Shown: piece by piece, positions 11,182-13,435 of the stretch
How the letters are laid out: each line of letters begins with the position of its first letter
How positions within the stretch are numbered: position 1 is the stretch's first letter
From: Allomeiothermus silvanus DSM 9946
GTDB lineage: Bacteria > Deinococcota > Deinococci > Deinococcales > Thermaceae
Assembly (NCBI RefSeq): GCF_000092125.1
Contig: NC_014212.1
Span: 1,012,001 to 1,076,000 of the forward strand
Direction of reading: 5' to 3'
Length of the DNA stretch: 64,000 bases
The notes under the pieces: generated by a model
Seen by the model: the letters and a program-made list of their open reading frames with translations, nothing else
What the model was told of the DNA's origin: nothing
Databases searched by the model: none
Translations under genes and position numbers: made by a program

Positions 11182-11266
11182 GGGTTTCTCCAGACGGCTC
11201 TAGCGAGTCATTCTATGGGTTTCCAGGGGACCGGTGTAGGGGAAAGGTGAGGGAGTCTTCGGGAGT

Positions 11267-11295
11267 AAAAAAACCCCCTACGCGGGCGTAGGGGG
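11267..11295 (-). terminator. Intrinsic terminator in the leuS leader
   Basis: On the minus strand CCCCCTACG-CCCG-CGTAGGGGG forms a 9-base stem followed by seven T (positions 11273 to 11267). It is a textbook intrinsic terminator placed 86 bases before leuS. Its 5' arm overlaps the 3' arm of the upstream hairpin at 11292-11320, so the two structures exclude each other. Confidence 0.85.
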
Positions 11296-11320
11296 AGCTT
11301 CCCGAACTCGCGGGCTCCCC
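11292..11320 (-). promoter_or_regulatory. Antiterminator hairpin of the leuS attenuator
   Basis: On the minus strand GGGGAGC pairs with GCTCCCC, with an inner CCCG/CGGG stem. It begins exactly at the stop codon of the leader peptide and shares C residues 11292-11295 with the terminator. A ribosome stalled at the leucine codons would leave it free to form; a ribosome at the stop codon would cover its 5' arm. Confidence 0.7.
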
Positions 11321-11352
11321 TAGGTTAGCGCTAGGCGCTTCACAAACCTCAT
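11320..11352 (-). CDS. leuS leader peptide MRFVKRLALT
   Basis: A 10-codon frame, ATG 11352 to TAG 11320, coding MRFVKRLALT. Codons 7 and 9 are both CTA leucine, directly before the stop and the competing hairpins. TATCAT lies exactly 6 bases before the ATG, so the transcript probably begins at the leader start codon. This is the arrangement of amino-acid leader peptides such as E. coli leuL or pheST leader, here placed on leuS. Confidence 0.65.
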   Translation of the reverse strand: MRFVKRLALT

Positions 11353-11358
11353 GGGCTC

Positions 11359-11364
11359 ATGATA
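11359..11364 (-). promoter_or_regulatory. -10 box of the leuS leader transcript
   Basis: TATCAT on the minus strand, 6 bases before the leader peptide ATG at 11352. No good -35 hexamer is evident. Confidence 0.5.
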
Positions 11365-11410: not shown

Positions 11411-12181
11411 TTATGGGAACGGTTTTAAGCTATACCAAGCGATAGTTTGACCGTTCCACTCGCCCAGCATCTCCAGCCAACCGGGTTTGAAGCCTGTTGG
11501 AACCGGGACCAGTCCCGGCGGCAAGGCCGCCAAAGTTTTGCCGTCGAAGTAGGCCACGAGGCGGATTTGGTTGTTCGTCTCGGGGGATGCCCGGAGCGCT
11601 AAGAGGCGATCGTTGGGGTCGTCTTGCAGCCAGATTTCTGCGTACTGGTACGGGGCGAGGGGGCTGATAGAGTTCTGCCAGCGCAGCAGCGGGGTTACCG
11701 GCCCTCGGTAGAAGGCCCAGGCTTTGGGGCTTACGATCCGCACCTCATCGGCGCGAAAGACGTTGCCCTCCCAGCGCCCACTGGCCTCGAGCCACATCCC
11801 CGGAGCGACCAGGCGTAGCCAGGGAGAGTCGCTCAGCAAGCGGGTGGACCCGGTATAGACCTGTTTGCCGTCGTTGACGGTGACCTGAGCGTAATAGCTG
11901 CGGCGCTCTTGGTTATTGGAGCCCTGGGGATTTCCTCCGCCCCGGTTGGCGTTGTTGTCTTTATCGTTACCGCCGCTATCGTCCTTGCCGCCCTTATCCC
12001 CTTTGTCTCCTTTATCCCCCTTATCCCCCTTGCCTTTGTTATCTCCTTTATCCCCGTTCTTGTTGGTGTGGTCCTCGGCAAAGGCTACCCCCCAAGGGGC
12101 AAGCGGAACGAGCGGTCCCAGGCTGAGCCCCAACAGCAACAGGAGGGCGAGCGGGTGGCTAAGTGCGCGTCGCCCGAGCAT
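11411..12181 (-). CDS. Secreted protein with GDK-repeat linker
   Basis: A 256-residue exported protein. The start is ATG 12181 with GGAGG upstream. The signal peptide spans about residues 1-34 and ends GVAFA before EDHTNK. Residues about 38-80 are a low-complexity hydrophilic linker of repeated GDK/GDKGGK units, encoded by tandem GGGATAAAG-like 9-base words. The remaining 170 residues are beta-rich and include QVTVNDGKQVYTGSTRLL and VFRADEVRIVSPKAWAFYRGPV, loosely like DUF5666 units. It overlaps the 3' end of the disrupted kinase gene, so it was the last gene of a two-component operon. Exact function is unknown. Confidence 0.75.
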   Translation of the reverse strand: MLGRRALSHPLALLLLLGLSLGPLVPLAPWGVAFAEDHTNKNGDKGDNKGKGDKGDKGDKGDKGGKDDSGGNDKDNNANRGGGNPQGSNNQERRSYYAQVTVNDGKQVYTGSTRLLSDSPWLRLVAPGMWLEASGRWEGNVFRADEVRIVSPKAWAFYRGPVTPLLRWQNSISPLAPYQYAEIWLQDDPNDRLLALRASPETNNQIRLVAYFDGKTLAALPPGLVPVPTGFKPGWLEMLGEWNGQTIAWYSLKPFP

Positions 12182-12287
12182 GGGCTTCCTCCCGTGGAGG
12201 GTTGGCTTTGGGCAGGCTGAGGGTGACCTCGAGGCCGGGGCGGAGGTTTCTAAAGTGTACGTTCCCCGATAGCGAACGGGCAATATG
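12159..12287 (-). pseudogene. Histidine kinase 3' remnant
   Basis: In a different frame from the secreted protein gene, the minus strand reads LSGNVHFRNLRPGLEVTLSLPKA and ends at TAG 12159-12161. This matches the last strand of HATPase domains (GxVxxxNRPxGGLxVTLxLP). It runs from the ISAs1 left end, so it is the tail of the sensor kinase that should pair with the response regulator at 13538. Everything else of the kinase is absent. Confidence 0.65.
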
Positions 12288-13435
12288 GCCAGACTTGACC
12301 GATATACAGCCCTTGGGGTAGAGAAAGATCATGACTCTGCGCCAGGCGCTATCTCAGGTCCCGGACCCCCGGGCCCACAACCGGCGGTACCCCCTGTGGG
12401 GCCTTCTGGCCCTCATCCTGGTGGCCTTCCTGAGCCGCGTGGACTCCCTGCGCGGCGTGGAACGCTTTGCCCGCGCCAACCCCCACCTCTTGCCCCACCT
12501 GGGCCTGCGCAAGGCCCCAGGCCACACCGCCATCACCCTTCTCCTTCACCGCCTGGATCCTGAGAAGCTCCAGGCGGCCCTTGGCCAGGTCTTCCCCGAA
12601 GCCGACCTTGGGGAGGTCCTGGTGGTGGACGGGAAGCACCTGCGGGGAAGCGGCAAGGGGAAAAGCCCCCAGGTCAAGCTGGTGGAGGTCCTGGCCCTGC
12701 ACCTCCATACCACCCTGGCCCAGGCCCGGGCGGAAGGGAGGGAGGAGAAGGCCTTCCTGGAGCTTCTGGACCGTTTGGAGGCGAGGGAGCTGGAGGGCAA
12801 GGTGGTGGTGGGGGACGCGGGGTACCTGTACCCTGAGGTGGCGGCCCGGGTGCGGAAAAAAGGGGGGACTATCTCTTGGTCCTGAAGGGGAACCAGGAGG
12901 AGCTTTTGTCCTGGGCCCTGGAGGTGTTCAAGGGGATGGCGGGAAGGCGTCTTCCCGGGGAGACGGAGGCGACCTGGAGTGGGGTGCGGGACGGGGAGGT
13001 GTGGACCTACCGGGTTTGGGCTTCCCCCTACCTGCCGGAAGAGGTGCGGGCCTTCCCTGGGGCCAGGCAGGTGGTGCGGCTTTGGCGGGAGGTGAGGCAC
13101 AAGGGGACGGGGGAGGTGCGGCGGACGGTGAGCTACGCCCTCACCAGCCTGGGGCCGGAGGTAGCGGACGCAAAGCGGCTGGGGAGCCTGTTGCTTTCCC
13201 GATGGGAGGTGGAGAACCGATCGTTTTGGGTGCGGGACGTGTGCTTTGGGGAGGATGCCTGTCAGGTGCGGGGGGTGGGGGCGTGGGTGCTAGCGGTGCT
13301 GCGGGCCTTCCTGGTCTCCATGCTTCACCGAGAGGGGGTGAGGGAGAAGAAGGCAGCCCTAGAAATCTTCTCCTTCAACCCCCTCTCCGCCCTGCGCTTC
13401 CTGGGGCTCTATGCGGCATAGCGGTCAAGTCTGGC
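12288..13435 (+). mobile_element. ISAs1-family insertion element
   Basis: About 1.15 kb bounded by inverted repeats GCCAGACTTGACCG (12288-12301) and CGGTCAAGTCTGGC (13422-13435). It carries one ISAs1-type transposase gene. No clear target duplication is seen, suggesting that its arrival was accompanied by deletion of most of the host kinase gene. Codon use is even more GC-biased than the neighbours, closer to Thermus style. Confidence 0.85.
12331..13421 (+). pseudogene. ISAs1 transposase with one frameshift
   Basis: Frame one (12331 to about 12880) reads MTLRQALSQVPDPRAHNRRY and the motif LVVDGKHLRGS with the first catalytic Asp. It derails in the run AAAAAAGGGGGG (12857-12868), ending KKGGTISWS. 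In the -1 frame the protein continues as DYLLVLKGNQEELL to the typical ISAs1 ending RWEVENRSFWVRDVCFGEDACQVR and stops at 13419-13421. One extra base in the A6G6 run would restore a roughly 360-residue enzyme. It is either inactivated or expressed by slippage at the run. Confidence 0.8.

Follow-up and report, generated by a model that had tools for sequence, protein, structure and literature searches.

We report that leuS of Allomeiothermus silvanus DSM 9946 is very probably controlled by a ribosome-mediated, leader-peptide transcription attenuator, which, judged from sequence, almost certainly raises production of the synthetase when charged leucine tRNA is short. The element lies on the minus strand of the window, by which we mean the whole 64,000-nucleotide stretch analysed here (contig NC_014212.1, positions 1,012,001 to 1,076,000). 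Comparison with other Deinococcota strongly backs this reading.

In minus-strand order the locus consists of TGtTATCAT-GAGCCC-leader ORF, hairpin A, terminator B with its seven T, 85 bases, and leuS (Table 1). The leader reads ATG AGG TTT GTG AAG CGC CTA GCG CTA ACC TAG (11352-11320), with a spacer of 6 nt (GAGCCC) between the -10 box and its ATG, and the 5' arm of hairpin A begins on the last base of the leader stop codon (11320). The perfect terminator B is formed by CCCCCTACG-CCCG-CGTAGGGGG at 11295-11274 followed by T7, and a terminator scan of the window recovered it at this site. The parts described by the first-pass annotation were all found where it had placed them: a TATCAT box, six bases, the ATG of MRFVKRLALT with two CTA codons, a stop codon abutting the 5' arm of hairpin A, and a 3' arm shared with a terminator ending in seven U, in front of an ORF (11181-8554) that is indeed leuS. 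The annotation had missed a conserved promoter-like TAnAAT between the terminator and leuS. Elsewhere in the window, at 12331-13421 on the plus strand, a transposase-like gene is split across overlapping frames (12331-12885 and 12876-13421); its first part matches DDE_Tnp_1_assoc and DDE_Tnp_1, and it may be a frameshifted or programmed-frameshift insertion sequence.

Table 1. Parts of the leuS leader region, in window coordinates
Feature	Position	Strand	Remark	Basis
Leader promoter -10 box, TATCAT	11359..11364	-	TGt just before (extended -10)	sequence
Leader ORF MRFVKRLALT, 10 codons + TAG	11320..11352	-	predicted leaderless	sequence; kept in relatives
CTA codon 7	11332..11334	-	predicted sensing codon	footprint model: last A-site position at which hairpin A is not weakened
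CTA codon 9, second Leu codon	11326..11328	-	ribosome stalled there already disrupts hairpin A	footprint model
Hairpin A, antiterminator	11292..11320	-	GGGGAGC 11320-11314 pairs with GCTCCCC 11298-11292	
Hairpin B (11295-11274), intrinsic terminator, + T7 (11273-11267)	11267..11295	-		fold and terminator scan
TAGAAT, promoter-like, possible second promoter	11210..11215	-	between terminator and leuS; no clear -35	
leuS, leucyl-tRNA synthetase, 875 aa	8554..11181	-		TIGR00396 (leuS_bact), 1076 bits, cut-off 548

When folded, terminator B of the window reached -16.7 kcal/mol (z -3.25) and hairpin A -16.3 kcal/mol (z -1.9). Because CCCC is common to both, the two hairpins are mutually exclusive. 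The segment spanning A and B had a z of -0.84 and the whole leader fold a z of -2.0; the window alone is thus only modestly beyond chance, and we therefore turned to its relatives, comparison with which places the element far beyond chance.

We searched for the element with a rule that is blind to codon identity: TAnnnT, 4-8 nt, a start codon opening an ORF of 5-34 codons, and downstream of it a hairpin followed by a T-tract. Our sample comprised 96 distinct Deinococcota leuS upstreams, with no locus named Deinococcus among them. An ORF and terminator matching the rule were present in 65 of the 96, and in 63 the ORF contained CTA. Control rates were low: 3/58 leuS upstreams of other phyla (1/58 with CTA), 7/480 shuffled sequences (3/480 with CTA) and 6/538 overlapping pieces of the window (2/538 with CTA). 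Of 68 leaders picked out by the rule, 56 had the spacing seen in the window, with 6 nt between the end of TAnnnT and the start codon.

Both genomes of the window's own genus carried the element, as did both of genus g2, 13 of 17 in genus g3 (Meiothermus by its named members), all 27 in genus g4 (Thermus by its named members) and the one genome of g5. Family f4 had it in 7 of 11 examined, and families f2, f3 and f5 in part; plausible CTA leaders seen by eye in f5 genomes G082, G083, G091, G093, G095, G098 and G102 fail the rule and were left out of the counts. Named carriers include M. granaticius (L002), T. composti (L004), T. tenuipuniceus (L005), T. parvatiensis (L006) and T. caliditerrae (L016). 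The first-pass annotation had made its proposal depend on conservation of the leader ORF and of the hairpin pairing, and on this point it was borne out: leader, CTA and both hairpins recur in Meiothermus, in Thermus and in further family-level groups. The element is not essential, however, because it is missing from M. rufus (L003) and some others, among them g3 genomes G009 and G010, and because two further g3 genomes, G007 and G014, keep the CTA leader and have lost the T-tract. In the leuS upstreams of the latter pair (in L098 and L100) the hairpins are also retained, followed by degenerate T-tracts (GGGGGGTTGGC and GGGGTTAATTC), possibly reflecting decay or a different mode.

Within the window's own genome, a search with genome-wide patterns for further leaderless attenuators gave leuS as the sole clear case by eye. 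A separate observation concerns locus L241 (G000:C1, minus strand), upstream of leuA, where a leader GTG at 2160097 precedes the ilvB ATG at 2159950 in an operon with ilvB-like, ilvN-like and ilvC-like ORFs. The leader peptide, MSRAYTRISSLSLVLVVATRGGLVQ followed by a stop codon, includes CTA TCC CTA GTC CTA GTA GTA, and a strong GC-rich hairpin comes after it. L241 is likely a second, branched-chain attenuator that also uses rare CTA and GTA codons.

The leaders are rich in leucine codons, and 50 of 53 distinct leader ORFs contain CTA. This codon accounts for 69 of their 100 Leu codons, against a background of 9.1% in ORFs of the window and 1.9% in leuS genes (binomial P about 6e-48, an overstated value in that shared ancestry is ignored), and it occurs 69 times in frame, the two remaining frames having 6 and 2 occurrences. 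The residues flanking CTA differ by group, as in KRLALT, ARLIP, TGLPPA, SGLPRL and QRLLLAEG. That neighbouring residues vary between genera while CTA stays argues for selection on the codon. We found five tRNA-Leu genes, with anticodons UAA, UAG, CAA, CAG and GAG; CUA has its own tRNA-Leu(UAG) gene. The window leader carries CTA GCG CTA, and Thermus leaders have a single CTA, so that neither contains a run of adjacent Leu codons.

The codon is also held in register with the antiterminator. In a footprint model we placed each codon in the ribosomal A site, treated 16 nt from the first P-site base as covered, and folded the remaining sequence through the terminator's 5' arm. The switch position, taken as the final codon that still leaves the antiterminator 75% of its strength, lay no more than one codon from the first CTA in 54 of 60 distinct leaders (56 of 60 at 60 C), compared with a mean of 21 and a maximum of 36 in 5000 trials with random codon positions. 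Across the 60 leaders the antiterminator averaged -17.0 kcal/mol when the first CTA occupied the A site and -2.2 kcal/mol at the stop codon, the terminators averaging -15.5 kcal/mol, and in 60 of 60 the antiterminator weakened by more than 3 kcal/mol from first CTA to stop. A shuffle test of antiterminator energy gave a median p of 0.05. In the model, stalling at the control codon thus leaves the antiterminator free, and it is blocked once the ribosome has reached the stop codon.

In the window itself the antiterminator stood at -17.1 kcal/mol for a ribosome waiting at the first CTA, -10.3 at the next codon, -5.4 at the second CTA and -4.9 at the stop. The first-pass annotation had supposed that stalling at the Leu codons would favour hairpin A, which by this model holds for the first CTA but not for the second; its further claim that completing the leader would cover the 5' arm of hairpin A agrees with the value at the stop codon. 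Since hairpin A keeps its full strength with the ribosome at the first CTA and is disrupted at the second, the sensing codon is most likely the first.

An antiterminator that excludes the terminator, through a shared arm in the window, was present in the distinct leaders folded. Among 15 Meiothermus-group leaders, 95.5% of the pair cells of hairpin A were kept. No covariation was obtainable in this group, whose arms are nearly invariant, and we therefore made use of exchanges of arms between groups. The arm sequences differ from group to group, and both pairings are kept in each; arm 2 gave -18.0 with its own arm 3 and -13.4 with the arms of other groups. In Thermus there is a third pairing, between the leader segment GGCCAGGC and GCCTGGCC, the latter situated past the 5' antiterminator arm. 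With no ribosome present this pairing forms together with the terminator (z -2.9), an arrangement resembling the four-arm trp layout; the equivalent 1:2 pairing in the window is weak (-6.0). Taken at the level of sequence and comparison, these data establish the leader, its codon, the two exclusive hairpins and their register.

We infer a response to leucine supply that would run as follows. As the -10 box lies 6 nt from the ATG, transcription is predicted to start at or beside that codon, giving a leaderless mRNA with essentially no 5' untranslated region, and a ribosome would read MRFVKRLALT behind the polymerase. If charged tRNA-Leu(UAG) were scarce, the ribosome would wait at the rare CUA codon 7, hairpin A would be free to form and capture the 5' arm of the terminator, and leuS would be transcribed. 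If leucyl-tRNA were plentiful, the ribosome would reach the stop codon and cover the 5' arm of hairpin A, so that terminator B would form and transcription would stop. Leaderless transcription from TANNNT near an ORF is common in Deinococcota and has been shown experimentally in D. radiodurans (PMC12340547).

Other explanations of the same features were weighed against attenuation. The hairpin and T-run could be the plain terminator of the upstream gene (11411-12283), with the short ORF there by chance; that gene shares the leader's strand, and about 115 bases separate its end at 11411 from the terminator. Such a reading is extremely unlikely, as a promoter-like -10 box intervenes between the upstream gene and the leader, and as leader, codon and register recur before leuS where the upstream gene differs, at rates far above those of the controls. 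A riboswitch binding tRNA or a metabolite, with the ORF incidental, is barely credible. T-box control of leuS does exist in other phyla, and a T-box-like GGGTGGTACCGCGG lies upstream of leuS in L017 and L031. Yet a T-box would not fit in so short a leader, and what is conserved between groups is a codon and a pairing, not a sequence motif. Nor did Rfam return any family, T-box included, at the window leader at gathering score, or anything relevant, again with no T-box, in the window leader region at a relaxed threshold. No T-box architecture was thus recognised there by covariance model, in keeping with the first-pass annotation, which had seen no T-box motif.

It is also conceivable that the peptide itself acts, either as a nascent-chain arrest peptide or in trans, and that the signal is something other than the supply of leucyl-tRNA. 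The Thermus peptide MxxARLxP is well conserved, and a trans-acting leader peptide, peTrpL, is known elsewhere (PMC7298713). We nevertheless regard this as very unlikely. The peptide is conserved in Thermus because the GGCCAGGC RNA pairs with GCCTGGCC, the CTA codon is the sole stable feature across genera while adjacent residues change, and a fixed synonymous codon points to tRNA supply rather than to peptide sequence.

An attenuator sensing leucyl-tRNA need not govern all transcription of leuS. Past the terminator, with about 30 nt left to the start of leuS, a TAnAAT is found in genomes of the window's genus and of the Meiothermus group, and also in genomes without the leader, including M. 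rufus. Since the promoter-like TAGAAT of the window comes after the terminator, part of the transcription of leuS may escape the switch, and the motif may provide a basal supply of leuS.

We lean slightly towards the broader view that the attenuator is ancestral and phylum-wide in Deinococcota and that a rare CUA codon, single in Thermus, on a leaderless mRNA constitutes the whole sensor. If so, leuS would read the charging of one isoacceptor, tRNA-Leu(UAG), and the codon would hold its register with the antiterminator even as the sequences of the peptide and the hairpins drift. Attenuation would give leuS of Thermus and Meiothermus a simple logic of regulation. The findings suggest that attenuation on a leaderless mRNA with one rare codon can work, and they bear on the coupling of transcription and translation at high temperature when the ribosome loads directly on the 5' end.

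Ribosome-mediated control through rare CUA codons, as proposed here, also operates in the attenuator of the enterobacterial leucine operon (Rfam Leu_leader), which governs leuABCD biosynthesis and has four adjacent Leu codons in an SD-led leader. Rfam gave no match to Leu_leader at the window leader at either the gathering or the relaxed threshold. For an aminoacyl-tRNA synthetase operon, leader-peptide attenuation is known from E. coli pheST (pheM), with Phe codons and again an SD-led leader. The pheST attenuator is cited in PMC1262725, in which Seliverstov et al. (2005) predicted leader-peptide attenuators for Streptomyces leuS; the S. lividans leuS leader (LeuL2) is leaderless by RNA-seq (PMC8079986). 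The trpL attenuator of Sinorhizobium meliloti (PMC7298713) has a transcript that begins at the ATG of the leader ORF, the same as predicted in the window, although it serves tryptophan biosynthesis through Trp codons in an alphaproteobacterium and is in this unlike the window leuS.

The Streptomyces leuS attenuators have the same gene, a short leader with Leu codons, and an antiterminator and terminator as in the window. The actinobacterial layout of Leu-codon leader, antiterminator and terminator directly upstream of leuS is found in the window, and a scan of the same kind detected a similar layout in 7 of 30 actinomycete leuS loci. Codon usage sets the two apart: the actinomycete leaders have two or three adjacent Leu codons (CTG, CTC, CTT), with no CTA in the loci examined, whereas Deinococcota leaders have isolated CTA codons and lack such a run. 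Among the actinomycete loci, L268, L269, L276 and L278-L281 have leaderless leuS leaders whose Leu run mostly ends in CTT, for example MRAATLLLTGPHRPSRR; they agree with the published Streptomyces attenuators and differ from Deinococcota in codon choice.

Because leader-peptide attenuation had already been predicted on Streptomyces leuS, both this kind of control and its use on leuS are known, and the first-pass suggestion that it appears unreported on leuS of this lineage calls for care (PMC1262725, PMC8079986). Outside Lopatovskaya et al. 2010 (Mol. Biol. 44:128), a survey cited in PMC4833913 that may hold a prior prediction, our literature search turned up no account of attenuation at leuS in Thermus, Meiothermus or Deinococcus. 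A 2010 survey described leader-peptide systems as then known only in Proteobacteria and Actinobacteria and added the Firmicutes (PMC2965389). What is new here, as far as we found no description of it, is the spread through Deinococcota and the reliance on rare CUA codons, one or a few per leader, in place of adjacent Leu codons. With a conserved example from a separate phylum, the known range of leader-peptide attenuation becomes wider.
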